Virus record (IMG/VR): IMGVR_UViG_3300044621_001683
Location: 1-41,200 of that record
Source: a virus
Length of the DNA stretch: 41,200 bases
Strand: one strand, 5' to 3'
In this document: positions 1,157 through 32,269 of the stretch, piece after piece
How the letters are laid out: every line of letters begins with the position of its first letter
Numbering within the stretch: position 1 is the first letter of the stretch
The notes under the pieces: generated by a model
Databases searched by the model: none
Told to the model about the DNA's origin: nothing
What the model saw: the letters and a program-made list of their open reading frames with translations, nothing else
Position numbers and translations under genes: made by a program

Positions 1157-4100
1157 ATGACACCGGCAGACATTGAGGACATGCTTACGGACGCGGAGTT
1201 TCAGGCGCTGCCGTTTGATCAACGGCAGACCGTGGCGGAACGCGCCATCGGCACGGCTGGACAATGGGTAGCCGACAATGGCGGATGGACGCCGGAGAAA
1301 TGGCGCACGTTTGGGGATCTGGCGCAGCAGACGCGGACGCAGATCGCGGACAGCGAAACGCTGGGCGAGAAGGCGGCCTGGGCCGGTGGCGTGGTGGTGG
1401 ATACGCTGAAGGATGCCATCAAAACGGCAGGCGTCGGTGTGGCCGGTCTGTCTCCGGTGGCGGCTCCTCGGGATGCGGCGGGCGGTGGCTCGCGCTTGGA
1501 AGCGCAGATGCCAGGCAAAACGCTGGGCAAGTCCTTTGCTGCCAATGCGGCGGCGCTGGCCACGGGTGTGGCGGACAAGTTGCTCAAGGATGCCGAGCCG
1601 GTGGACACCGAGCTCGCGGCGCTGCGCACGGAGATCGACCAGGGTGCTTTCTTTGATCACCCGAAAGGCGTGCAGGGCTGGCTGGATGATCGTGCGCAGG
1701 CGGTGCAGGCGAAGCAGGCGAAGTATTACGAGGACGAAAACTGGGCGCAGCAGAATGATCTGCTGGCCAACCCGGACAACGCGGCGCTGCTGAATGATTA
1801 CCTGCTCACGCGGAGCCCGCAGAGCTGGGATGCGCTGCGCAGCGCGGTGCTGCGCACGCCGGGGCAGGAGATGATCCGCGCGGCGAAGCAAGACATCACG
1901 CAAAACAGCGCGCTGGGCCGCAGCTTCCCGGGCAATGAGCAGTATATCAGCGAGGCGACCGATCCGGCGGAGCTGGCGGGCACGGTGTTTTCCGTGGGCG
2001 CGGGCAAGCTGGCGATCACCGGCGGCCGCAATTTGATGCAGCGCGGCGCGGCTTTGGCCGGCGGCGTGGCGGCTGAAACGGCGGGCGAGCAGGTGAGCGC
2101 CTTCATGGATGATCCCAACATGACGTGGGAACAGCGTCGCGAAATCGCCAAGCAAAGCGTCATCGCCAGTCTCGGCCTCGCCGGGGTAGGCGCGGGCGTG
2201 ACGGCGGCGAAGCGCGCGCTGACGACGACTCCCGAGAATGCCAGCGTAAATGACAGGACTGTCCCAATGCCCCCGGCCGATCAAACGGTGCCGGATGCAG
2301 GGACTGGTGCAGGTTCGACTCCTGCCGCTGGCTCCTTTGTCTCGCCGCTGCCGGGCATCGCGCAGCGCGCGGGCACGGTCGATGTGGCACCGCTGGTGCC
2401 CGGGCTGGAGGCGGAGGATCTGGGACCGCTGACGGCGGCGGATGTAACAGACCTTAATCCGGCTCCTGCTGCTGCTCCGACTCGCCAGCCGATCCTCACG
2501 AATGTGCCGGATGCACGCACGGCGGCGCAAATTGCGGAGAGCCAGCGCATCGAGGAGGCACGCCAGGCCAAGGAAGCGGAGATGCGGATGCTGGATGCGA
2601 AGGCGCGCGGCATGCCGTTGATTCCGGACAGCCCGATGGGTAGCCGGGACATTCTCGACTGGGCCAATGAGAACCCCATTTACCTGCCACCGGGCTTTTC
2701 GGAAGATCGCAAACTGCCAGAGTATGAATCGCTGAAGCGCAATCCGCTGCCGAATTACTGGCGGCAATTCGTGGCGAGCGCCAAACAGGGCGGCAACCCG
2801 GACAGCGTGGCGCAGCGGGCCTTTGATGCGGGCCTCATTCCCGAGCCGTCGGCGGATGCTTATTTTGCCGCGCTGCAGGATGGGATCGCGGCGCGGAAAC
2901 AATACCGGGTGCAATTCCAAGCGCGTGACAAAGCGCTGGCACAGGAGGAGAAACGCGTGGTCGATTTCGAGAAGTCGCAGACCAAGCTGGCCAAGAAGCC
3001 CGCCGCGCAGGAAGTGCCTTTTGATGAGATCGTGCCCGGTGACCGCATGACGATCGACGGCGAAAACGCCGTGGTGAAAAATGTGGAATACAACGAGGAC
3101 GGCTACCTCACGAACGTGGTGATCGAGGACGGCAAGCGCTTTGGCCTCATGCAGTTCGACGCGCAGAATCGCGGTGGCATCCTGGTGGATGAGTTTAAGC
3201 CGCAGCCGCGGCAGGCAGTGGAGGATTTTGCGCCGGAGGCAGTTACCACCACCACGCTGCCAGCCACGTCAGCAGCCACAACGCCAGCGCCAGCAAGCCG
3301 GGCCACATCGGGCCCGGGGGCGGGCGGGCAGACAATCGGGGAAACCAGCGGCGGCGCATTGTTGGACGTAGCACCGAGCACCCGCCCCCGCAATCGCGGC
3401 GAGACGACGGCACCGCAACGCGCGGATGTGCTGGCCGAGCTGGGCGCAGCCACGCGCGAGGGCGAAGCCAATCAAGCGCAGGGGCGTCTCGGCCTCGGCA
3501 CGGGCCTGAATCCGTCTGGCATGACGGCGGGCTTTGTAAATGCGGACATCGTGAACGAGGCGCTGGATCTCGTGGTGCGCGGCGTGCGTGATGCGGCAGC
3601 CTGGACGGCGGCGATGGTGCAGCGTTTTGGCGAGGCGATCCGGCAGTATCTGGCCGGGCTGTGGCAACACGTGCAGGCGCAGGTGCAGAGTCGCGAGGTG
3701 CGCTTTGGCGGCACGACATCCCGGTTGCGCCCGAGCGCAGAGATGGGGTTTGTGGCGGCCGGGGCCAATGAAACGCAGAGCCGTTTTGCCAGCCCAGATG
3801 CAGCGCAGCGCGTGATCAATGGGCCGCGCGCGGATGTGGATGTGGCGGCGGAGGCGTCGGCGTGGCTGGACTCGCTCAGCAGTGAGGCGGCCGTGGATGC
3901 GTTTGCCTCGCGGGCGGTGCCGCTGCCGCTGGATGCGGCGGAGTTTGCGGCGGCCACGTTGATTTCCCGTCTGACCATGCAGGGCGAGCAGGCAAAGACC
4001 GAGGCCGGAAGGCTGGCGGCGCACGTGCAGGCGCAGCGGATGGCCCGTGTGTGGACGAAGGAATATTTGTCTGCCGATCCGGCGCGGGCACTGCGTCAAC

Positions 4101-7100
4101 GCGGCGTGGCCAACAACACAATCCTGCGGCCCATCGCTCCGGTGATGGCGGCGCAAGGTATCCTGGTGGACCGCGCGGACGCGGTAATGGATAAGCGCTT
4201 TGAAGGCGGTGCCGGGGGCGTAACGGAGAAAGTGAAAGCTATCCTCGAAAAGGCGGACATCGACATCACGGAACGCGTCGAGGCCATCCTTTCGGCGGTG
4301 ATGGGATCGCGTTTGCAGCCGCGGGTGACGCTGGCGCAGGCCGTGGCTGGGCTGGTGAATGGCAAGACGCAGCGGCAGCAGATGATCGACGATGTGGCGC
4401 GGGCGCTGATGCAGCGGGCGAAGAGTCGCGAAGTGAAACCGGGCACGCAGACGGCACTGGCGGCCCTCGTGGCCAGCCTGAAGCGCACGCTGGGCGCGGC
4501 GGTGAAGGGCGAGGCGCTGAAGCCGGAGACGCTGAAGATGGGCGAACTGCTGGCCCGCACCTTTGTGGATCAGGTGGCGGAGGCTCCGCTGTTTGAGGAG
4601 GCGTGGACGGCAGGCCGTGAGCAGGTGCGTGCGATGCTGATCGAGACGGGCCTGAGTCAAACGCAGGCGGACAAACGGCTGAATGAGCTGATGCCCGCCA
4701 CGCCGACGGTGGCCTATGCGCCGGGCATGGTGAAGCAGGCGGTGCAGCGTGGCTTTGAGCAGGCGGGTTATGGCCAGACGCTGACGACACGCATGGACCG
4801 CAGCGGCCAACGGCAGGTGGATGTGCGGGCGGAGGCGCTGCGCAATCCGCAGAAGGCCATGGAAGCGGTGATGAAGGTCTGGGATGAGGAGGCGGATGCG
4901 GCCGGCATTTCACCGGAGGCCTGGGCGCAGGGCCGAGCACTGGCATGGAAGGCGCTGAGCGAGACGATGCAGCAATGGCAGTCACAGCAGCAGGCAACGC
5001 AGGCCAAGGCGGATGCGGCGGCGAAAGCCAAGCTGCTGGAGAAGGACAGCCCGACACTGGCGAAGCTGCTGAAGTCGCTGAAGGATAAGATCGCCCCCGG
5101 CATGAGCTGGGCGGACATCTTCATGGACATGCCAAGCTCTCAACGGGAGCGGCAGCGGGAGATTTACCGCCGCCTCATGCTCGATGAGCGACTGAAGGGG
5201 CTCACGATGGAGCAGCGGCTGGATCTGACCAACGAGCTGGACCGCGCCTGGCAACGGGAGCGCAAGGCGGTGTTCAATCGCGAGCTGGAGAAGGCGGGCA
5301 TCCTGGGCGAGAAGGACAAGGGTGATCGTGACAAGGTGAAGAAGGCGCTGCCGAAGCTGCTGCGCATGATCAACCTGGGCATGTTCAACTCGGAGATGTG
5401 GCGCGAGATCGTGGCGCCGGAGTATGGCCTGAAGATGCTGACGGCGGCAGACACCGCGCAGCTTCGCGGCATGGCCGAGGCAGCATGGAAGCTGCCGGAA
5501 GGGATTCTTCAGAATAAAAAGCTCTTGGATTTGCTAAAGTCTATCCAAGCAAAAACAGGGGCAAGCTGGGTGGAAGTGCTGAACTCCTACTGGACCTCGT
5601 CCATTTTATCGGGCATGCGCACGCAGTTTGACACGTGGCTGGCAGGCCTCAATGGCATGGGCACCAACTTGATTCAGATCGGCGGCCTCATCGCCCGCGG
5701 CAAGGGGCGGTCCGCCATTGACGCGCATGCGCAATGGTGGCGTGGTTTGTTTGAAGGGGTGCGTGAAAGTGGACAAATCCTGTTCAAAGGTGACACCAGT
5801 TATCTAAAGCGCTTTGGCGCAGACCTTCAGAAAGCGCTGGAGGGAGACGCGTCTGCAATGCCGGTGCCAATGGGTGAGCACCTGTGGCGTAATGGCAACA
5901 CCTTCCAAAAATATGGTCTGGCTCCGGTAATGCTATTTAGTGGGCGTTTGATGGCGGCAGCGGATCACATCAACAACACGGCGACTACGCAAGGTGCCAT
6001 CGCGGTGGCGCGGGCGCTGCACCCTGAGCTTTACCAGGGCAAGGTGGGATTTACCCCTGCCGAGCGGGCCAATGCCCGAGCCCAAGCGCTGCGCGAGGTG
6101 ACCGGCGGACGCGAGCCGCAGACGAGCGAAGAGCGTGCCACGGTAAGCGCGCGGGCTCGCGAGATACTCAACGGCAGTCTGAAGGCGGAGGACTATGCTG
6201 CGGCTAGTGAGATCGGTGACATGGCGGCCTATCAGAATGATCCGACGGGATTGTTTGGCGTGCTTTACAGTGCGATGAAACAAGGGTTGGGCAGCATCCA
6301 GCGCGGCCTGAATGATTACTCGCAGGACGTGACGGCCAATCGCTTTGCTCGCATCGTGGCGGGCGTAATGGCGGGCTCGCTGCATGGCGTGACGGGCACG
6401 CGGTTCATGCGCTTTGGAGCCAACTTTGGCGCGGACATGACGCGCTACATCCCCGGCAGCTATGTGCTGGGCAAGGCGGGGTTTTACGGTCGCGACGTGA
6501 GCCGCATGCAGCAGGAGCTGCTGCTGGGCAAGAACATCGTGGGCCTGATGCTGGCGAGCACGCTGGCGTCGGTGTTTCTCAACTCGGACGACAAAGATGA
6601 AGGCTGGCAGATCGAGGGCGACTGGAGCACGCTGAATCCGCAGCAGGTCAAAGAGCGCATGGCGGCCGGTATGGAGCGGATGACGCTGTGGAAACGTGAG
6701 GGCGACAAGGTGCGCCGGGTGAGTTACAAGCAATGGCCGACGATGGGGCTGTTCTCCGTCGTGGGTGGCATGCTGGATGAGAAACGCCACAAGCCTGCGC
6801 AGTTTGCCGAGCACGGCGCTGCTGGTCATCTGCTGCGCGGGCTGGCCACGGGCTACACGCAGGTCAAGAACGTCTCTGCCGTGCGCAATCTCGTGGAACT
6901 GTTTGGCGAGCCCACTTTCTCCGCCGATGCGGTGGACGGCACGATTGAGAAAATGATCAAGACGGGCACCAATTTTGCCGGTGGCTTTGTCCCGACGCTG
7001 ATCAAGGATGCAGACATCTGGGCGGATTCGCGCAGCTTCAAGCCGGAGGGCGTGGCAGAAATGATGATGCGCAACACGCCGATCCTGCGGCGGTTTGTGA

Positions 7101-7474
7101 ACGATGGCCGCCCGCAGCTCAATCTGCTGGGCGAGGAGGTCAAACTGCAACGCGCGCCGTGGTCGCGGGCCTACACCAACGTGGCCAGCGGTGAAGCGCA
7201 TCGCGTGCTCGGAGCGCTGCTGGCGCGGGGTTTGTCACTGCCGATGCCGAGCGATCAAGTGCGGGTGACGCAAGGCGGTGCGCGTGTTCCTTTGGAATCG
7301 CTGGGCCGTGAGGCCGTGTGGCAATACGAGCGCGCCGTCGGCCAAGGTTACAAAGACTGGCTGGCCACAGACGGTGCCAAACTGCTGGCGTTGCCCGTGG
7401 AGCAGGCGGAGAAATTCATTCAACGACGCGCTGAAGGCATCAAGCGGCAAGCGCTCGGGAGGGTGATGCGGTGA
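1157..7474 (+). CDS. giant polyvalent / internal virion-type protein, 2105 aa
   Basis: This is the largest gene of the genome. The N-terminal 400 residues include Ala/Gly-rich helical segments that could touch membrane (about 270-350). Residues 400-780 are partly low-complexity linker. Residues about 1320-1380 are a charged helical region. The last 650 residues follow the order seen in large phage polyvalent proteins: a YWTSSILSGMRT-type segment (about 1478), an SGRLMAAADHINNT-type segment (about 1595), a hydrophobic segment IVGLMLASTLASVFLN (about 1794), and a C-terminal YKQWPTMGLFSVVGGML stretch. No lysozyme, protease or polymerase motif was recognised. Its place at the end of the late genes, after the repeat-rich virion protein, suggests an ejected internal protein. 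That role is inference. The start ATG at 1157 has no clear Shine-Dalgarno sequence. Confidence 0.8.
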   Translation: MTPADIEDMLTDAEFQALPFDQRQTVAERAIGTAGQWVADNGGWTPEKWRTFGDLAQQTRTQIADSETLGEKAAWAGGVVVDTLKDAIKTAGVGVAGLSPVAAPRDAAGGGSRLEAQMPGKTLGKSFAANAAALATGVADKLLKDAEPVDTELAALRTEIDQGAFFDHPKGVQGWLDDRAQAVQAKQAKYYEDENWAQQNDLLANPDNAALLNDYLLTRSPQSWDALRSAVLRTPGQEMIRAAKQDITQNSALGRSFPGNEQYISEATDPAELAGTVFSVGAGKLAITGGRNLMQRGAALAGGVAAETAGEQVSAFMDDPNMTWEQRREIAKQSVIASLGLAGVGAGVTAAKRALTTTPENASVNDRTVPMPPADQTVPDAGTGAGSTPAAGSFVSPLPGIAQRAGTVDVAPLVPGLEAEDLGPLTAADVTDLNPAPAAAPTRQPILTNVPDARTAAQIAESQRIEEARQAKEAEMRMLDAKARGMPLIPDSPMGSRDILDWANENPIYLPPGFSEDRKLPEYESLKRNPLPNYWRQFVASAKQGGNPDSVAQRAFDAGLIPEPSADAYFAALQDGIAARKQYRVQFQARDKALAQEEKRVVDFEKSQTKLAKKPAAQEVPFDEIVPGDRMTIDGENAVVKNVEYNEDGYLTNVVIEDGKRFGLMQFDAQNRGGILVDEFKPQPRQAVEDFAPEAVTTTTLPATSAATTPAPASRATSGPGAGGQTIGETSGGALLDVAPSTRPRNRGETTAPQRADVLAELGAATREGEANQAQGRLGLGTGLNPSGMTAGFVNADIVNEALDLVVRGVRDAAAWTAAMVQRFGEAIRQYLAGLWQHVQAQVQSREVRFGGTTSRLRPSAEMGFVAAGANETQSRFASPDAAQRVINGPRADVDVAAEASAWLDSLSSEAAVDAFASRAVPLPLDAAEFAAATLISRLTMQGEQAKTEAGRLAAHVQAQRMARVWTKEYLSADPARALRQRGVANNTILRPIAPVMAAQGILVDRADAVMDKRFEGGAGGVTEKVKAILEKADIDITERVEAILSAVMGSRLQPRVTLAQAVAGLVNGKTQRQQMIDDVARALMQRAKSREVKPGTQTALAALVASLKRTLGAAVKGEALKPETLKMGELLARTFVDQVAEAPLFEEAWTAGREQVRAMLIETGLSQTQADKRLNELMPATPTVAYAPGMVKQAVQRGFEQAGYGQTLTTRMDRSGQRQVDVRAEALRNPQKAMEAVMKVWDEEADAAGISPEAWAQGRALAWKALSETMQQWQSQQQATQAKADAAAKAKLLEKDSPTLAKLLKSLKDKIAPGMSWADIFMDMPSSQRERQREIYRRLMLDERLKGLTMEQRLDLTNELDRAWQRERKAVFNRELEKAGILGEKDKGDRDKVKKALPKLLRMINLGMFNSEMWREIVAPEYGLKMLTAADTAQLRGMAEAAWKLPEGILQNKKLLDLLKSIQAKTGASWVEVLNSYWTSSILSGMRTQFDTWLAGLNGMGTNLIQIGGLIARGKGRSAIDAHAQWWRGLFEGVRESGQILFKGDTSYLKRFGADLQKALEGDASAMPVPMGEHLWRNGNTFQKYGLAPVMLFSGRLMAAADHINNTATTQGAIAVARALHPELYQGKVGFTPAERANARAQALREVTGGREPQTSEERATVSARAREILNGSLKAEDYAAASEIGDMAAYQNDPTGLFGVLYSAMKQGLGSIQRGLNDYSQDVTANRFARIVAGVMAGSLHGVTGTRFMRFGANFGADMTRYIPGSYVLGKAGFYGRDVSRMQQELLLGKNIVGLMLASTLASVFLNSDDKDEGWQIEGDWSTLNPQQVKERMAAGMERMTLWKREGDKVRRVSYKQWPTMGLFSVVGGMLDEKRHKPAQFAEHGAAGHLLRGLATGYTQVKNVSAVRNLVELFGEPTFSADAVDGTIEKMIKTGTNFAGGFVPTLIKDADIWADSRSFKPEGVAEMMMRNTPILRRFVNDGRPQLNLLGEEVKLQRAPWSRAYTNVASGEAHRVLGALLARGLSLPMPSDQVRVTQGGARVPLESLGREAVWQYERAVGQGYKDWLATDGAKLLALPVEQAEKFIQRRAEGIKRQALGRVMR

Positions 7475-7959: not shown

Positions 7960-8106
7960 TGGGGAAAGTGGGTTTTACGTGGGGAAATGGGCTGGCGCTG
8001 GGCGGGTTTGAGGGAGTGGATGGAGGGCGAATTGAGGCGTAAATGGGATGTATATAAACGTATATAGGCTTGACGGAGTGTGACGTTGGGTGTTACAAAG
8101 TGTGAC
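7960..8106 (+). promoter_or_regulatory. attP arm / integrase promoter region with phased repeats
   Basis: Three short repeat families lie between the attP core and the integrase start. TGGGGAAA followed by a G-run occurs at 7960 and 7980 (20 bp apart). GTATATA occurs at 8050 and 8060 (10 bp apart). GTGTGAC or GTGTTAC occurs at 8078, 8090 and 8100. Helical spacing and position suit integrase arm-type sites or operators for integrase control. The AT-rich tatata tracts may also contain the promoter. The binding roles are inference. Confidence 0.5.
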
Positions 8107-9363
8107 ATGAGCGACCGCAACGACTCTTCCCCTGCCCTTTCCTCTGCCGTGTCTTCGGGTTCTTTGGTGCCTTCGGGTGCTGCACAGGGCGTGAAGGCGT
8201 CTCGGCCGGCTTCGCTGAAGCGACGCATTGCGGGGGTGAAGGTGCGGTTTTATAAGCGCACGGTGGCATCGAATCTGAGCATGGATTTTGAGCTGGAGGG
8301 TGAGCGGTTTCAGGAGTCCACCGGGTGGCCGCACATCGCGGATGCGGAGCGGGTGGCGCTGCGGCGGATTGAGGAGATCAAGGCGGCGCGTTTTGCGCTG
8401 GGGGCCGGTGCGCTGGTGCGTGGCTCGATGGCGACGGTGGGGGATGTTTGCGAGGCGGTGACGGGCGGGGATAAGGTGATGGAGGATCGGACGCGGGCGC
8501 GGTATCTGGAAGCGTTGAAGCGGCTGGCGCGGGTGGTGGATGAGGCGCGGCCGGATGCGGTGGCGCTGGATGCGGTGCTGAATCGCGGGCTGCTGGAGCG
8601 GTTTGTGAGTGTGGGACAAGGCCGCGATGGCCGAGGCGTGAATTGGCATGATGCGCTGCCGGGGAATGTGGGCCTAAATTCGACGCTGCGGAATGCGGCG
8701 AGTGTGTTTCAGGAGCGGATTGTGGAGCGGCACCTGAAGGGGTTGCGGCTGCCTCCGCTGGATGCGCTGCGGAAGTTTCCGGCGCTGCCGACGCCGCCGA
8801 CGCATTTTGTGCCGTGGCCGACGGAGAATCTGGCGGCGATGGATGCGGCGGCGCAGGTGTTGAAGGTGGAAGAGCCGGAGCTTTACCTGTGCCACATCAT
8901 GCTGCGTCGCCTCGGGCTGCGGGATGCGGAGCTGCTGGCGGCGCGGGCGAGCTGGGTGCAGTGGAATGAGGCGGAGGGGAAGGCGTGGCTGGATGTGCGG
9001 CCTCGGGCTGCGGAGGGTGGCGAGCCGGGTTTCAGGCTGCTGAAGGGTGGCAGGCCGCGGCGTTTGGCGCTGGATGCGGAGATCCAGGGGCTGCTGAAGG
9101 GGCGCGCGGGGTTTTTGATCGGTGACGGCTGGACGGATTCACGCCGCTATGATTTCATTTATCGGGATCATTGCGAGTGGCTGCGGCCGTTTGTGCCGGC
9201 GGGGCGCTCGAAGGTGAACCATGAGCTGCGGAAGCTGAGCGCGAGTCGCGTTTATACGGCGCACGGCATCGCGGCGGCGGCGTATTTCCTGGGGGATTCG
9301 GTGGCGACGACGGAGGGGTATTATGCGACCTGGACGGGCGAGGCTCCGGTGGTGGAGTGGTGA
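8107..9363 (+). CDS. int: tyrosine recombinase (phage integrase)
   Basis: The gene encodes 418 aa from ATG 8107. A GTG at 8080 is in frame but lies within the GTGTGAC repeats. The C-terminal catalytic domain shows the tyrosine-recombinase order: an LRRLGLRDAELLAARASW helix with Arg about 272, KGGRPRRL with Lys about 313, HELR with His about 372 and Arg about 375, then LGDS, where Asp replaces the usual His, and GYY with the nucleophile at about 405-406. The N-terminal half holds a likely core-binding domain. It catalyses integration and excision at the adjacent tRNA-Leu attP. It is convergent with the leftward accessory block. The His-to-Asp change at the LGH position is unusual but occurs in divergent integrases. 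Confidence 0.9.
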   Translation: MSDRNDSSPALSSAVSSGSLVPSGAAQGVKASRPASLKRRIAGVKVRFYKRTVASNLSMDFELEGERFQESTGWPHIADAERVALRRIEEIKAARFALGAGALVRGSMATVGDVCEAVTGGDKVMEDRTRARYLEALKRLARVVDEARPDAVALDAVLNRGLLERFVSVGQGRDGRGVNWHDALPGNVGLNSTLRNAASVFQERIVERHLKGLRLPPLDALRKFPALPTPPTHFVPWPTENLAAMDAAAQVLKVEEPELYLCHIMLRRLGLRDAELLAARASWVQWNEAEGKAWLDVRPRAAEGGEPGFRLLKGGRPRRLALDAEIQGLLKGRAGFLIGDGWTDSRRYDFIYRDHCEWLRPFVPAGRSKVNHELRKLSASRVYTAHGIAAAAYFLGDSVATTEGYYATWTGEAPVVEW

Positions 9364-10355: not shown

Positions 10356-11117
10356 TCATGCTGCGAGTCCTAGCTCGCGGGGTGGTAGCGCCTTGCCTTC
10401 GAGCCAGTGGCCGAGCGCCTTTGCTTGTCTGCCGTTTTCGGTGCCTTGCATCCAGCCGGTGCCGTCCACGGATTCGACTCTCCATCGTTCGCAGATGTGG
10501 AGTCGTTCAACTTCATTCACACGGCCCACATGCACGCGGGCACCTGTCCGCGCCCACATGGGCAGCGAGCGCCATTTCCATTCGGTAGTGCCACCGATGA
10601 AGATCACTTCGGCGTTCGTGGGGATGTCGGCGGGCGTCATTCCATCTTGCACGGCGATTGCCAGCGTCCAGCCGTAGCGAACTGCGACAGGTGCGTATTG
10701 CTCCCACTTCGCCAGCGTGGCCACACGGTCTGCCACCACATCGGGCACGAGCACCCATTTAGGCGTCAGTCCCTGCGCTCTTACGTTGCCTAGCATTGCC
10801 AGCCATGCAGCTTCGTCCCACGGCCTGCCCGTTGTCCAACTCGCGAAGGCGTCATTGTCGAGTGCGAACGGCATCCATGGCCGGAGCTTGGTCTTTTTCA
10901 TCGCGGACGGCCCGACCAGCCAGCCAATGCGCCCTTCGTATTTGCCCGCCCAAAAATGAACGATGGCGCTGGAGTTATTGGACGGCATCACCATCAGTTT
11001 CCGCTTCTCATCGCGTGCCATGACCTGCGCCCAATGCAACCCGCCACAACCATGCGCTGCATGGAATGCCGCAGGGGCATCATGCGCGAGGTCGAAGGCT
11101 GGAGGTGCGGCATCCAT
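10356..11117 (-). CDS. DpdA / tRNA-guanine transglycosylase-like protein
   Basis: Numbered from ATG 11117 (253 aa), the protein has, in order, ALDNDAF (Asp87), VPDVVAD (Asp126), AVQDG (Gln157), FIGGTTEWKW (Gly175-Gly176) and SVDGTGW (Asp218). This mirrors the TGT TIM-barrel active site: the DSGGFQ Asp, the DECT Asp, the Gln-Gly pair, the double Gly and the nucleophilic Asp. In phages, DpdA-type relatives exchange guanine in DNA for a 7-deazaguanine. Here the role is inferred, and substrate (DNA or tRNA) is unknown. The true start may be Met33 (11021) or Met42 (10994), because the conserved part begins near VMPSNNS. ATG 11117 lies 3 nt after the upstream stop. No queuosine-precursor genes (folE, queD, queE, queC) were seen. 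Confidence 0.65.
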   Translation of the reverse strand: MDAAPPAFDLAHDAPAAFHAAHGCGGLHWAQVMARDEKRKLMVMPSNNSSAIVHFWAGKYEGRIGWLVGPSAMKKTKLRPWMPFALDNDAFASWTTGRPWDEAAWLAMLGNVRAQGLTPKWVLVPDVVADRVATLAKWEQYAPVAVRYGWTLAIAVQDGMTPADIPTNAEVIFIGGTTEWKWRSLPMWARTGARVHVGRVNEVERLHICERWRVESVDGTGWMQGTENGRQAKALGHWLEGKALPPRELGLAA

Positions 11118-11120
11118 GAG

Positions 11121-11381
11121 CTATGCGTTGAGGTCACAAAACATGTGGCATTGGCAGTCGGGGCATTGGCAAAGCGTCGAGTCATATTCGCGATTGCATT
11201 GGAGGCAGCGGCGCCGGAGTCCATGCTGTGGGAGCAGTGGCATGCCAAACATGAGCCGGAACCGATTTCCTGCATGCAGCTTTGAGAGTGCGCGGTGATT
11301 GGCCGCGCGCTGTTCCGGCGTGGGAATTGGAACAAGATCGCCGCATGGGGGCTGATCGTTGGCGTGCATGGAATTAGGCAT
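11121..11381 (-). CDS. small Cys-rich zinc-binding protein, 86 aa
   Basis: The C-terminal third has CLQC, then CQCPDCQC and a final FC, enough cysteines for a treble-clef or zinc-ribbon site. The N-terminal half contains TPEQRAANHRALSKLHAGNRF. The start overlaps the end of the upstream gene by 8 bp, and the stop is 3 nt before the DpdA-like ATG, so it is tightly coupled to that gene. The function is unknown. A partner role for the transglycosylase is possible only from context. Confidence 0.65.
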   Translation of the reverse strand: MPNSMHANDQPPCGDLVPIPTPEQRAANHRALSKLHAGNRFRLMFGMPLLPQHGLRRRCLQCNREYDSTLCQCPDCQCHMFCDLNA

Positions 11382-12176: not shown

Positions 12177-13028
12177 TTACATGTTCCACGCGCCATGCAG
12201 AGACTTCGGTTGTTCGCCCGCTCGGATCGCATCGCGGACGCTGTTGATCGAGCGTCCATTCTGGAATGTGTGTCCGATTTCATTTTCGAGTTCGCAGTAT
12301 TCATCAAGCAGGTCGGGGTTGGCGCGGCCTGCCACCAGGAGGGCTTCACGCGGAGCGAAGATGCAGAATCGACACGAGAGCCGTGGCATTCCCAGATCGT
12401 AGGCGGCATGGTGCGGCACGCCGCTTTCACGGATGCTTTTCCACACTTCACCCTCGCTCCATTCATGGATCGGGAGCCAGTCCCACACCTCGCGTTGCCC
12501 GGATGAGAAGCGGGAGTTCCGCACGAAGGTTTTCTTCTTCGCCCTGGCTGGCGATTCATCGGCACGGAAGCCATAGACGTTGAGCACTGGCCCCGCTTCC
12601 TCACGGAAGAGTTTTACGATCACCCGCCCACCTGGGCCGCGTTTGAACTCCGATGTGCAGAAGCGGTTTTGTGAGTCCGGCCATTTCCGCCTGGCTCGCA
12701 CGTAATCCAACAGCGTGCTTTCGGTGCCGTGCTTGTCTCGATATTTCGATACCTCGACACGCAGCCCATAGTGAGCGGCCTGTTGCTCTACCAGATCGCG
12801 CGTTCCTTCCCATTCCATGCGCCCAAGGCACTGGTGAGATACCACGATCCGGGAGCGATCCACGCCTTGCCGGTCGCACTCTTCCACCACGACGCGGAGG
12901 GCGGTTTGTGAGTCCTTGCCACCCGACGAATTGACCACAATCCACCTCCACAAAGAGAGGGAACCAGGCGCTGGATGGAACGCCGAGGGCGCGCCATCTG
13001 AGAGCGGAGATTGTAGGGCGGCGTCCAT
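12177..13028 (-). CDS. PAPS-reductase-like PP-loop ATPase
   Basis: ATG 13028 (MDAALQSP) lies 4 nt after the upstream stop and gives 283 aa. NSSGGKDS (residues about 33-40) is the PP-loop of N-type ATP pyrophosphatases. RIVVSHQCLGRMEWEGT, RFCTSEFKRGP and a late LSCRFCIFAPR (Cys219 and Cys222) match the PAPS reductase/DndC-like superfamily that is common in phages. Members use ATP to activate a substrate. Phage members have no settled reaction, and true sulfate assimilation is unlikely here. It shares a leftward gene run with the DpdA-like protein, so a nucleic-acid modification role is a reasonable guess. It is not a clear QueC. Confidence 0.8.
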   Translation of the reverse strand: MDAALQSPLSDGAPSAFHPAPGSLSLWRWIVVNSSGGKDSQTALRVVVEECDRQGVDRSRIVVSHQCLGRMEWEGTRDLVEQQAAHYGLRVEVSKYRDKHGTESTLLDYVRARRKWPDSQNRFCTSEFKRGPGGRVIVKLFREEAGPVLNVYGFRADESPARAKKKTFVRNSRFSSGQREVWDWLPIHEWSEGEVWKSIRESGVPHHAAYDLGMPRLSCRFCIFAPREALLVAGRANPDLLDEYCELENEIGHTFQNGRSINSVRDAIRAGEQPKSLHGAWNM

Positions 13029-13032
13029 CAGC

Positions 13033-13260
13033 TTAATCGTTATGCCTTGGCCCCGCCAACCTGCCGTAAATCCACACGGCGAACAGAGCGACAACTTGGA
13101 ACCATGTCCGTTCCCCGGCGTCGGCCCAATGTTGCCCGGCGCATAGTTGGTATCCGAAGTTCCCCAGCATCAAGCCCAGCGCCAACCCGGCCAAGGCATA
13201 ACCAGTCACTGCACCACTAACTGCGGGCCGCTCCGGTTCGATAGGTGTTGGTTCATTCAT
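13033..13260 (-). CDS. small membrane protein, two TM helices
   Basis: The 75-aa protein has one hydrophobic segment at about residues 17-40 (GYALAGLALGLMLGNFGY) and a second at about 52-67 (FQVVALFAVWIYG). Its ATG overlaps the previous stop by 4 bp (ATGA). The size and topology would suit a holin, but the lysis genes are elsewhere, near 36.2-37.9 kb. A superinfection-exclusion or other prophage membrane function fits this accessory location better. No family is recognised. Confidence 0.6.
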   Translation of the reverse strand: MNEPTPIEPERPAVSGAVTGYALAGLALGLMLGNFGYQLCAGQHWADAGERTWFQVVALFAVWIYGRLAGPRHND

Positions 13261-23471: not shown

Positions 23472-23510
23472 ACTGTGAAGGGAAATGCACGCCAACGACC
23501 AAGGTATGCC

Positions 23511-24338
23511 ATGAATGCCGCGCCCTCCAGCTCCGCCTCGCCAATGACTCCAACGCGGCAGTCATTGGCATCACCGTCTGGTTCTGGCCCTTTGCGGGTA
23601 TTGGTGGCGTGCGAGTATTCAGGTGCAGTGCGTGACAGCTTCATTGCTCTCGGGCATGATGCTATGTCTTGCGATCTCCTACCGACTGATGCCCCTGGCC
23701 CACATCACACTGGCGATGTGGCGGAGCTACTGAGTCGGCAATGGGACATCCTGATAGCCTTCCCGCCATGCACCTATCTGTGCTCGTCTGGAATGCACTG
23801 GACGGTGAGAGGACTGCGTGATCCAAAGCTAACCGAGGATGCGCTAGAGTTCGTGCGCTCACTGATGGGCGCAAATGTGCCGCACATCGCACTAGAGAAT
23901 CCAGTGGGCGCAATCTCCACACGCATCCGCAAACCTGACTGCGTGGTTCACCCGTGGCAATACGGACACCCTGAATCGAAAACCACATGCCTATGGCTCA
24001 AGAACCTGCCAGCACTCAACCCCACCAACGTCCTGCAAAAGCCGGAAAGCGGAAGGTGGGAAAACCAAACGCCAAGCGGCCAGAACAAACTCGCGCCAAG
24101 CAAAAACCGATGGAAGGAGCGGAGCAAGACATACAAGGGCATCGCGCAAGCGATGGCGGAACAGTGGAGCGCGTTCGTATTGTCTTCGCGCATGAACTCC
24201 CCGAGTGTGAATGCTGCGGAGAGCCTTGGTGCGCTGTTCACCTGGAACACTACGCCGACTGTGACTGCATCGGACCCCACAACGCTGAAGATGAAGGGTA
24301 TCGACTGGTCGATGAGAACGGAACCATCTACGGACTAA
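23511..24338 (+). CDS. phage cytosine-C5-methylase-like protein
   Basis: ATG 23511 is preceded by AAGGT. The 275-aa product has VLVACEYSGAVRDSFIALGH (motif I-like SAM loop), a CDLLPTDAPGPHHTGDV segment and DILIAFPPCTYLCSSGMHW (PPC catalytic-type motif IV), followed by VPHIALENPVGAIS (ENP motif). It belongs to the short phage Dcm-like family. The usual C-terminal block SKTYKGIAQAMAEQW ends near 24170. The last 55 residues have no family look and overlap another gene in a different frame. It may protect phage DNA or modify it. The target is unknown. Confidence 0.8.
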   Translation: MNAAPSSSASPMTPTRQSLASPSGSGPLRVLVACEYSGAVRDSFIALGHDAMSCDLLPTDAPGPHHTGDVAELLSRQWDILIAFPPCTYLCSSGMHWTVRGLRDPKLTEDALEFVRSLMGANVPHIALENPVGAISTRIRKPDCVVHPWQYGHPESKTTCLWLKNLPALNPTNVLQKPESGRWENQTPSGQNKLAPSKNRWKERSKTYKGIAQAMAEQWSAFVLSSRMNSPSVNAAESLGALFTWNTTPTVTASDPTTLKMKGIDWSMRTEPSTD

Positions 24339-27254: not shown

Positions 27255-29534
27255 ATGCTCACTTCCGACCTCGAAACCGGCGAAACCTACGTCGTCGCCT
27301 CCGATGAAACGCTCGATCCCACCTGGGTGATCGACGAGATGACGCTCTCGCTCACCGATCTCGGGCCGTGGATTCAGGACATGCAGGACCATGAGCGCAC
27401 CGCGCTGGCTGTTTGGGCCGGGCAGTCGCAGGATGGGCGCAAGCATGCCGCGAACTACGGCAAGAAAGTGTTCCCCTTCGAGGGCTCCGCCGATTCCCGC
27501 GTGCATCTGGCAGGCGAAGCCATCGACCAGCTCACCATGCTGGAGATGTTGGCGATCGAGAGCGCCAAGGTGCAGGTCATTGCCATGGAGGCCAGTGATG
27601 CGGCCGCGTCCAAGAAGGTCGAGACGCTGATGAAATACGAGACGCGGCAACGCCTGCGGGCCGAGCTGTGGCGCGAGCGCAATTTCGCCCGGCAGATCAA
27701 GCACACCTGGGGCCATGCCGTGATGCACGTCGGCTGGGAGCAGCGCATGGGCACGGCGCAGGTCACGCTCAGCATTGAGGATCTGGTGCAAGATCACACG
27801 CAAACCAAACTCGCCGAGGCCCGCCTGCAAGCCGCCGAGGCAGGCATGCAGCCCATCGACGCCGATGGCGAACTGCTCACACCCGAGCAGCAGCTCGCCA
27901 TTGCCGATGCTGCCGAGGCCGAGCTGAACGACTTGCTGCGGGCGGAAGATGTCGCGCCCATCGTCGCGATGATCCGCCGCCGTCACCCGCTGCTCTCGCC
28001 CGTGCGGGCGCGGCGTGTGGCGCGTGAATTGCGCACCGAGGACAGCGTGACCTTCACCGCGCCGTATCGCAAACCGGGCAAACCCTGCGTCCGCGCCTAC
28101 CTGCCCGGCATTGATGTGTTTTACCCGCACTGGTGCGGCCAGGTGGACCGCGCTCCGTGGGTGGCGCACGTCGAGCAATACACCGAACCTGAGATCAAAG
28201 CCAAAGCCAAGACCGACGGCTGGAACGAGGAAGCCATCGACGCCCTGCTGGACATGGGACCGAAGCCCGTTGTCGATACCTCTGCCGTGCTCAATACCAC
28301 CGCCGCCAGTGTCGAGCGCATCCTGAACGAGCCCGCCCGCGACACCTTCACCGCCCGCTATCGCAATCGCGAACAGACCTGGTATGAGGTGCTGCGCATC
28401 ACCGTGCAGACCGTCGATGAGGAAGGCTATCCTGCCGTGCAAGAGCTGATCCTGCATCCGTCATTGGTCGGCAAGGATCGCCGCAAAGCGGACAAGGAAC
28501 TCGTGTTCGTCAACCGCTTGCTCGATTACTACTTTGACGGCGGCTGCTACGTCGATCTGCGTCGTGAATACAAGGCACGTCCGCTGTTTGAGAGCCGCGG
28601 CGTGCCGGAAATGGTTGGCACGCATCAATACCTGCTCAAGAGCACGCGCGATGCCAGCATGGACCGCACGAGCTTTGCCACCATGCCCATCGTGAAGGTC
28701 ACCGGCCGCCGTGCTGGCAGTGGTGCCCGCTGGGACTATGAGCCCGGCACGAAGCTGCCCGTCGAGTCTGGCGGCGATGCCGACTACATGCGCCCGCCTC
28801 CCTTGGATCAAGGCACGATCCTCGATGCCAACGAGATCCGCAAGGACGTGGCCAATCTGCTCGGCCTGCATCATCGCGAGATCGACGTGGCGAAGGTGCA
28901 GATGCACCAGCAATGGATCGTCGCCGGAGCCCTCATGGAGGAGCGCGAGATCCTGCGCCGCATCCTTGCGCTCGATCAGCAGTTCATGGACCCGCTCTAT
29001 GTCAGCCGGGTGCTTGGCAATGGCCCGCAGCCTTTTCAGGTCACCCGCGAGGAGATCGCAGGCAGCTTTGATTTCGTGCTGGAGTTCGACGTGAAGAGCC
29101 TGGACATGGAGTATCTGCAAAAGCGCTGGAGCGCTTTGAAGGACGCCTTCAGCATTCCCGGCGTCGCCGGACAGGTGCCCACAGTGCCCGTCGTGTCGTG
29201 GCTGCTCAACAACATCGACCCCGGCCTGGCCGATCTGGTCACCGGCAGCCTCAGCGAGCGCAATGCTGCCGAGGCTGAAGAGGAAAAAGCCGCCATCGCC
29301 ATGCTGCTGACTGGCGTCGAGCCCACCGTCACCGAGAGCATGGATGCCGCCACCCGTTTGCAGGTGGATCAAGAGCAGATGCAGAAGAACCCCGCCGTGG
29401 CCCAAGCCTACGCCGCCGGTGGCATGTTCACCGAGATGCTCAACCGTCGCATGGCCGCTTTCCAGTTTGCCGTCCAGCAGCGCACGGAAAATGCGCAGGT
29501 GGGGCGCACCGGTTTCAAACCTGTTGTTGAATAA
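27255..29534 (+). CDS. portal protein
   Basis: The product has 759 aa and is the large gene after terminase. The N-terminal WIQDMQDHERTALAVWAGQ and KKVFPFEGSADSRVHLAGEA match the entry region of large podophage-type portals. An acidic helical segment, PGIDVFYPHWCGQVDRAPW (about residue 285) and the C-terminal GSLSERNAAEAEEEKAAIAM follow. The portal ring forms the packaging vertex. The assignment rests on order (TerL, portal, scaffold, capsid), on size and on these segments. The leader TCCTGCCCGCACGGCC before ATG lacks a clear Shine-Dalgarno sequence. Confidence 0.8.
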   Translation: MLTSDLETGETYVVASDETLDPTWVIDEMTLSLTDLGPWIQDMQDHERTALAVWAGQSQDGRKHAANYGKKVFPFEGSADSRVHLAGEAIDQLTMLEMLAIESAKVQVIAMEASDAAASKKVETLMKYETRQRLRAELWRERNFARQIKHTWGHAVMHVGWEQRMGTAQVTLSIEDLVQDHTQTKLAEARLQAAEAGMQPIDADGELLTPEQQLAIADAAEAELNDLLRAEDVAPIVAMIRRRHPLLSPVRARRVARELRTEDSVTFTAPYRKPGKPCVRAYLPGIDVFYPHWCGQVDRAPWVAHVEQYTEPEIKAKAKTDGWNEEAIDALLDMGPKPVVDTSAVLNTTAASVERILNEPARDTFTARYRNREQTWYEVLRITVQTVDEEGYPAVQELILHPSLVGKDRRKADKELVFVNRLLDYYFDGGCYVDLRREYKARPLFESRGVPEMVGTHQYLLKSTRDASMDRTSFATMPIVKVTGRRAGSGARWDYEPGTKLPVESGGDADYMRPPPLDQGTILDANEIRKDVANLLGLHHREIDVAKVQMHQQWIVAGALMEEREILRRILALDQQFMDPLYVSRVLGNGPQPFQVTREEIAGSFDFVLEFDVKSLDMEYLQKRWSALKDAFSIPGVAGQVPTVPVVSWLLNNIDPGLADLVTGSLSERNAAEAEEEKAAIAMLLTGVEPTVTESMDAATRLQVDQEQMQKNPAVAQAYAAGGMFTEMLNRRMAAFQFAVQQRTENAQVGRTGFKPVVE

Positions 29535-31273: not shown

Positions 31274-32269
31274 ATGCCCGCCACCTTTGAACGCACCCAA
31301 GTGGGACGCCGCGAAGACCTCGCCGACGCCATCTACAACATCGACGCGAAGGACTATCCTTTGCTCTCCGCCATCCCGAAAGGGAAAGCCGCCGTCAAGA
31401 CCCGCTTTGACTGGCAGGCCGACAGCTATGCCACCCCGAGCACCGACGGCGTTGTCGATGGTGCCGACGTGAGCACCTACGAAGACGCCGCCGAAAATCG
31501 CGGCCTGCTCTCCAACTACGTCCAGAAGGTGCGCCGCACCCCGATGGTCACGGAGATGGCGCAGGACGTGTCCGACGTGGCCGGCCTCGCATCCGAAATG
31601 GCTGGTGCCATCGCCAAGAAGACCATCGAGTGCAAACGCGATGTCGAAGCCACCCTCGGCAGCGACAACGAAGCACAGGCCGACAACGGCACGGTGCCTT
31701 ACAAGACGCGCGGCCTCGGCAAGTGGGCGCTCAGCACCGCGCAAGCCGTGCTTCCGGTGCCCTCCGCCTTCCGCACGCCCTCCGCCAGCATCGACGCCAC
31801 CGCGCTTGCCAGCGTGACCCGCGCCGTGGTGAACAACGTCATGAAGAGCCAGTATGCCCAGACCGGCAAACGCGGCACCTACATGTTCGTGTGCGGCACC
31901 AGCCTCAAGGCCCGCTTCACCGAAATGGTCGGCTACTCGCCCACCGTGTCCAACTTCACCGCCATCACCCAGACCAATCGCGGCCAGGGCTCGAAGTGGA
32001 GCGACACGATCGAGAGCTTCACCGGTGACTTCGGCACCTACGACCTCGTGCTGTCCAACTGGCTCGGCTTCTCCGCCGGTGCGGCCGATGCCCGCCGCGG
32101 CTACGCCATCGACCCCTCCATGATGGAACTCAAGTTCAACAAGCAGTGGGCCTACAAGGCGCTGCCTGACCTGGACGGCGGCCCACGTGGTGTGATCAGC
32201 GCCATCTTCGGCCTCGCGGTCAAGAACCCGCTCGGCCTCGCGAAGTTCGCCGCTACCGCCGACAGCTAA
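31274..32269 (+). CDS. major capsid protein, SU10/DUF5309-like
   Basis: The product has 331 aa. The start MPATFERTQVGRREDLADAI and YNIDAKDYPLLSAIPKGKAA, then KTRFDWQADSYATP, resemble the N-terminal signature of SU10/DUF5309 capsid proteins (lxDxIxnIdPxdtP...tr.eWqtDsl). RGTYMFVCGTSLKARFTEMV and WAYKALPDLDGG in the second half are also consistent. It forms the head shell with an HK97-type fold, and it follows the scaffold gene. A good terminator hairpin lies right after it. Confidence 0.85.
   Translation: MPATFERTQVGRREDLADAIYNIDAKDYPLLSAIPKGKAAVKTRFDWQADSYATPSTDGVVDGADVSTYEDAAENRGLLSNYVQKVRRTPMVTEMAQDVSDVAGLASEMAGAIAKKTIECKRDVEATLGSDNEAQADNGTVPYKTRGLGKWALSTAQAVLPVPSAFRTPSASIDATALASVTRAVVNNVMKSQYAQTGKRGTYMFVCGTSLKARFTEMVGYSPTVSNFTAITQTNRGQGSKWSDTIESFTGDFGTYDLVLSNWLGFSAGAADARRGYAIDPSMMELKFNKQWAYKALPDLDGGPRGVISAIFGLAVKNPLGLAKFAATADS

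Follow-up and report, generated by a model that had tools for sequence, protein, structure and literature searches.

We report that a short viral gene, P0001 (10356..11117, minus strand), probably encodes a compact DpdA-type DNA-guanine transglycosylase that would insert host-supplied preQ0, or a derivative of it, as an anti-restriction measure. The gene lies in IMG/VR virus record IMGVR_UViG_3300044621_001683, of which positions 1-41,200 form the window analysed here; these 41.2 kb are what we call the record. A preliminary description of this DNA had proposed a DpdA/TGT-like transglycosylase, and the proposal is now backed by the predicted fold, by a profile match to DpdA and by the operon company of queC and queD in relatives. 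Catalytic activity, DNA as the substrate, preQ0 as the base, the anti-restriction benefit and supply by the host are the parts of this explanation that we infer.

P0001 is under purifying selection and belongs to a short viral protein family

P0001 starts with ATG and forms an ORF of 253 aa. Three bases upstream lies an 86-aa ORF (11121..11381, minus strand) without a Pfam or PHROG match, which is presumed to share its transcript. The N-terminal ~26 residues of P0001 are predicted to be disordered and are missing from many relatives. Scans with Pfam, NCBIfam and PADLOC gave nothing usable for this protein, and its PHROGs match is family 15826 (E = 3.3e-32), which carries no function. Searching phage records by tblastn returned 23 matches at 30-38% identity, several of them labelled 'DpdA-like tRNA-guanine transglycosylase', and more than 400 stretches of IMG/VR match P0001, the closest at 80-100% identity. 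Against seven homologues pN/pS was 0.09-0.23 with pS up to 0.81, a low ratio which argues that the protein is kept by selection. P0001 is therefore a genuine gene on which purifying selection acts, and many viral contigs carry relatives of it.

Named members of the same short family include the proteins annotated 'DpdA-like tRNA-guanine transglycosylase' in actinophages (Arthrobacter phages Sonali gp81 and Aoka gp40; Mycobacterium phage Mangethe gp54) and likewise gp03 of Rhodococcus phage ReqiPine5, in PHROG 15826. These share 30-37% identity and the invariant residues with P0001. Relatives also occur in 170 records of a plasmid collection, 142 of them from Pseudomonas, and those listed are all annotated as hypothetical; examples lie at 1701-2573 of L087 (P. 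aeruginosa), 8782-9660 of L089 (Burkholderia) and 8022-8834 of L090 (Deinococcus). A single-sequence scan of cellular genomes with P0001 found no match, and a scan with an alignment turned up distant copies spread over several phyla. Relatives of the capsid and helicase fixed no host for the P0001 phage.

The conserved residues align with the active site of canonical DpdA

Profile-profile alignment of the short family (A3) with canonical phage DpdA (A4) by hhalign gave a score of 46.6 (E 9.6e-6). This is well above the controls, in which 60 column-shuffled profiles reached at most 21.6 and the QueC, QueD, QueE and FolE families at most 23.5. The active-site residues fall in register, pairing D87 of P0001 with D72 of DpdA, D126 with D114, G175-G176 with GG162-163, H196 with H196 and D218 with D215. 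At the level of sequence profiles, then, the P0001 family is homologous to canonical DpdA beyond chance.

Invariance was scored in two alignments, one of 55 diverse relatives and one of 23 rows that include isolate phages and plasmids. Thirteen positions are invariant in the former (D87, N88, P125, D126, T134, Q157, G175, G176, K181, H196, R199, D218 and G221), and D87, P125-D126, Q157, G175-G176, H196, R199 and D218 are so in the latter too. The ordered TGT-like residues that the preliminary description had read in the ORF at 10356-11117 are all there (D87, D126, Q157, G175-G176, D218), except that its 'Gln-Gly-type pair' is in fact Gln-Asp-Gly (Q157-D158-G159). All of the corresponding codons are on the minus strand. 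D87 (LDNDAF; 10857..10859), the counterpart of D72 in the DSGAF motif of DpdA, occupies what we take to be the position of the general acid/base Asp of TGT. D126 (VPDV; 10740..10742) is a proposed base-recognition Asp, and Q157-D158-G159 (AVQDGM; 10641..10649), invariant as a triplet in the 23 rows, is a proposed base-recognition loop. G175-G176 (GGTTEWKW) is encoded at 10590..10595, and H196 (RVHVGRVN; 10530..10532) corresponds to the DpdA-type histidine, found within KVHGFGIT in 9g. D218 (VDGTGW; 10464..10466), matching D215 of CDSSSW, is the proposed nucleophile.

The chemistry that these residues could support is drawn by analogy with TGT, from which the roles of D218 and D87 are presumably carried over. 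D218 would attack C1' of guanosine so that guanine is released, D87 would serve as general acid/base, and D126, Q157 and G175-G176 would hold the incoming 7-deazaguanine. preQ0, or a derivative such as ADG, would thereby take the place of guanine in phage DNA, and the modified DNA would be shielded from restriction enzymes.

With the canonical phage DpdA proteins of the Nonagvirus/Seuratvirus type (9g, CAjan, phiG7), P0001 has in common the residue order D-D-GG-H-D with the H196-type histidine, and its family shares with them a predicted TGT-like barrel and the tie to queC/queD. Yet the relation holds at profile level only: canonical DpdA has ~300-317 aa, whereas the short family has ~210-250 aa, and the motifs differ throughout, with DN(G/D)AF in place of DSGAF, VPDV of LDGIGD, QDGM of FHxGE, GGTTEWKW of GGMVG and DGTGW of DSSSW. 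The invariant elements GGTTxWKW and R199-x-N201 are specific to the short family, and GGTTEWKW...DGTGW serves as the signature of this divergent group. The 9g-type DpdA has a conserved histidine at position 196 that DpdA2 lacks (PMC6884629). H196 of P0001 aligns with H196 of 9g DpdA, which speaks against placing it with DpdA2 of the Vibrio phage nt-1 type; nt-1 R9TGF0 gave a weak fold match.

The DpdA of Salmonella phage 7-11, a singleton, gave a match with E 3e-7 over LDNGAF...VPDVIG. Like P0001 it is a dpdA without precursor genes, but its C-terminal half has diverged (GCMGKHKS, DSSY) and tblastn with P0001 missed it. DNDAF had been put forward as an unusual variant; DN for DS turns out to be the rule of the family, and because 7-11 DpdA also has LDNGAF, the variant belongs to a DN-type group and is not unique. 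Outside the P0001 clade, the second D of DNDAF occurs in just a few sister rows (L021, L023, L024).

P0001 is predicted to fold as a TGT-like barrel

The AlphaFold2 model of P0001 is a barrel, predicted with high confidence (pLDDT 87.7, pTM 0.82). The model puts the conserved residues where successive strands (E84-86, 122-123, 152-156, 171-174, 194-197 and 216-219) end on their C-terminal side, or close to these ends, as expected for a barrel active site. Of the 50 best PDB matches that Foldseek returned for the model from the deeper alignment, most were TGT chains (TMq 0.50-0.53, E ~1e-4), including entries with bound preQ0, preQ1 and queuine. The prediction is of a TGT-like barrel with TGT dominant among its matches, and other TIM barrels (TrpA, KGPDC) scored almost as high. 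When viral models were compared, the earlier P0001 model had its best named matches in phage queuine tRNA-ribosyltransferases/DpdA, including Sonali gp87 and Vibrio nt-1 R9TGF0.

Bacterial TGT resembles P0001 in the barrel, predicted for the latter, and in that its conserved residues lie close to where comparable strands end; it differs in its zinc-binding Cys/His cluster and in length, P0001 being ~120 aa shorter. The TGT zinc site (CxCxxC...H after the catalytic Asp) has no equivalent cluster in P0001 or its relatives. The short-family profile did not match the TGT profile significantly in hhalign (score 17.5), nor was there a Pfam match to PF01702, and identification of P0001 as a TGT by sequence profile was dropped. 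The canonical DpdA profile also fails to reach TGT (score 23.7).

Since the solved structures closest to it belong to tRNA enzymes, P0001 might instead act on tRNA or another RNA and, in infected cells or lysogens, exchange particular guanines for preQ0 or preQ1. The queC and queD genes linked to relatives (see below) could feed a tRNA pathway equally well, and a canonical TGT is already present in each of the 8 cellular assemblies with a relative, 7 of the 8 having QueC as well. We nevertheless consider action on RNA unlikely: P0001 lacks the zinc site and the C-terminal part of TGT and has the DpdA-type H196, its profile aligns with the DNA-modifying DpdA and not with TGT, and the gene lies downstream of a DnaB-like helicase in several relatives and adjoins DNA polymerase genes in those of isolate phages.

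queC and queD are tightly linked to relatives of P0001

The strongest evidence for the function of the short family is its linkage to queC and queD. Loci were searched with profiles for QueC, QueD, QueE, FolE, canonical DpdA and a PAPS-reductase-like gene. In 934 kb of flank from 78 distinct IMG/VR loci, among which related loci are non-independent, 33 QueD, QueC or QueE ORFs were found. Every one of the 33 shares the strand of the short gene and lies within 585 bases of it, mostly overlapping it as stop-to-stop ORFs; elsewhere in the 934 kb there was none. Because the loci had been picked by the transglycosylase alone, the link is no product of how they were chosen. Where at least 1.2 kb was available on both sides, 20 of 56 distinct loci had a Que ORF. 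Four linked QueD proteins that were tested pass the NCBIfam QueD equivalog cut-off and 1 QueC passes its own, with 2 more QueC falling ~6 bits or less below, and the C..HGH.Y motif is kept in most of the linked QueD proteins checked. Near-identical short-DpdA genes occur both with and without an adjacent QueD and with different downstream genes (L040, L043 and L048 versus L031 and L035), which points to closely related phages having recently gained or lost queD.

Short-family members also coexist with canonical DpdA, in Sonali, phiG7, R29Z and L160; in Escherichia phage phiG7 the short paralogue is split into two ORFs, and Sonali, unlike the P0001 record, also has a full preQ0 gene set. Short paralogues in phages or contigs with canonical DpdA and preQ0 genes lie at 9941-10533 of L083, 8004-8621 of L084, 4767-5351 of L105 and 10876-11514 of L160. 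Such members may have another job, and this coexistence is our main ground for thinking that some members may differ in product or site preference. For P0001 itself, a different base-exchange job (insertion of another base, removal of 7-deazaguanine or another site specificity) would fit with the occurrence of Sonali gp81 and its counterparts in R29Z, phiG7 (split) and L160 beside canonical DpdA, with the family's own invariant GGTTxWKW and R199-x-N201, and with loci that have QueD without QueC. It is improbable all the same, for in the main viral clades the gene adjoins QueC/QueD while a canonical DpdA is absent from the surrounding 10 kb, as expected of the inserting enzyme itself.

The P0001 lineage has probably lost its precursor genes

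Searches of the 41.2-kb record for QueC, QueD/PTPS, QueE and GTP cyclohydrolase I (FolE) found none, confirming for this possibly incomplete record the earlier statement that folE, queD, queE and queC are absent; the canonical phage DpdA systems differ from it in this respect. Positions 1-159 repeat sequence in the last 370 bases (95-96% identity, ~189-base units). With both ends in the same tandem repeat, the contig may be incomplete and probably breaks inside a tandem-repeat gene.

A PP-loop/PAPS-reductase-like protein is encoded at 12177-13094 (minus strand; PF01507 1.7e-14, PADLOC BrxP 6e-13, DndC and SspD weaker). It was considered as a QueC stand-in or partner and rejected, as among close relatives only the near-identical L001 has it. 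Otherwise, PP-loop genes of that broad family were seen close to short-DpdA genes in two places only, a Burkholderia vietnamiensis plasmid and Rhodococcus phage ReqiPine5.

In a quick maximum-likelihood tree with 95 rows, P0001 fell in a clade of 18 (support 96), of which 14 could be scored for linkage: 13 are unlinked and 1, L188, is QueD-linked. The rows neighbouring this clade (L093, L023, L197, L189, L190, L021, L024 and L196) are all QueC- and/or QueD-linked. The simplest reading of the tree would be that the P0001 lineage lost its precursor genes, given that the sister rows are Que-linked and that L188 inside the clade still has QueD. The ancestral unit would have been a transglycosylase with adjacent queD and/or queC, and the P0001 clade, with these largely lost, would depend on preQ0 that the host makes or salvages. 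The QueC found in 7 of the 8 cellular assemblies means that bacteria in which such copies were binned can usually make preQ0.

The precursor-less state had been regarded as unusual, but phages with dpdA and no precursor genes were already the largest class in a 2019 survey (76 phages; PMC6884629). Of these 76, 7-11 had dADG in its DNA and Orion had no 7-deazaguanine. In Pantoea phage MED16, which according to the literature resembles the P0001 phage in having dpdA without precursor genes, dADG replaces ~0.13% of Gs (PMC8306585). The missing precursor genes and the unmodified DNA of Orion would also fit an effectively idle P0001, an inherited cassette whose substrate is missing in the host, as has been proposed for Orion in M. 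smegmatis. We regard this as very unlikely in view of the purifying selection and intact active site across the precursor-less clade, and of the recurrence of the gene at 80-96% identity amid mostly unrelated neighbours, which suggests a benefit.

The gene moves among otherwise different phages

Within the P0001 clade, copies with 80-91% identity sit in phages that otherwise differ, which indicates that the gene moves like a mobile cassette. In the P0001 clade we found no conserved neighbour besides a DnaB helicase or terminase-like gene, the highest neighbour counts being opposite-strand shadows of the gene itself. The placement of P0001 in a leftward block was borne out: the block is bordered by a tyrosine-recombinase-like ORF (8080..9363, plus strand) with box II/III motifs HELRK and LGDSVATTEGYY and weak HMM hits (E = 0.01-0.03). 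This position had been called unusual, but it varies among relatives, being on the helicase side in several and beside an integrase-like ORF, as in the P0001 record, in L002, L003, L012 and L013, so the placement is not diagnostic. A promoter and terminator scan of the leftward block stayed at about chance level.

Several other genes of the record were noted. An ORF of 2105 residues (1157-7474, plus strand) has no PHROG match, and part of it recurs in L002 and L003 at ~67% identity. The DNA methyltransferase gene at 23475-24338 (plus strand; phrog_757, E 1.2e-62) is a possible second anti-restriction function. The major head protein is encoded at 31274-32269 (plus strand; phrog_1328) and a probable portal at 27255-29534 (plus strand); most of the portal is covered by one database phage only, 'Phage C75C1', at 22% identity, so the phage belongs to a poorly sampled group.

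Implications

DpdA itself, phages with dpdA but no precursor genes and some 'DpdA-like' annotations of the short family are already known. The definition of the short family, its tight linkage to queC/queD and its mobility appear to be new within the literature searched. We see a small chance that this is an unrecognised DpdA family with another 7-deazaguanine or other sites, spreading between unrelated phages and plasmids as a mobile cassette of 1-3 genes, the transglycosylase alone or together with queD, queC or both, and that beside an integrase it could modify the chromosome of the lysogen.

The preferred reading of P0001 as a compact DNA-modifying DpdA offers a probable role for viral proteins that had none assigned, those of PHROG 15826 and its relatives in the IMG/VR stretches. 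The recurring minimal cassette of a transglycosylase with queD and/or queC escapes searches by gene name or Pfam, and the extent of deazaguanine-modified phage DNA may therefore be underestimated. The natural series of QueC- and QueD-linked, QueD-linked and unlinked genes is suited to the study of how phages become dependent on the preQ0 of their hosts.
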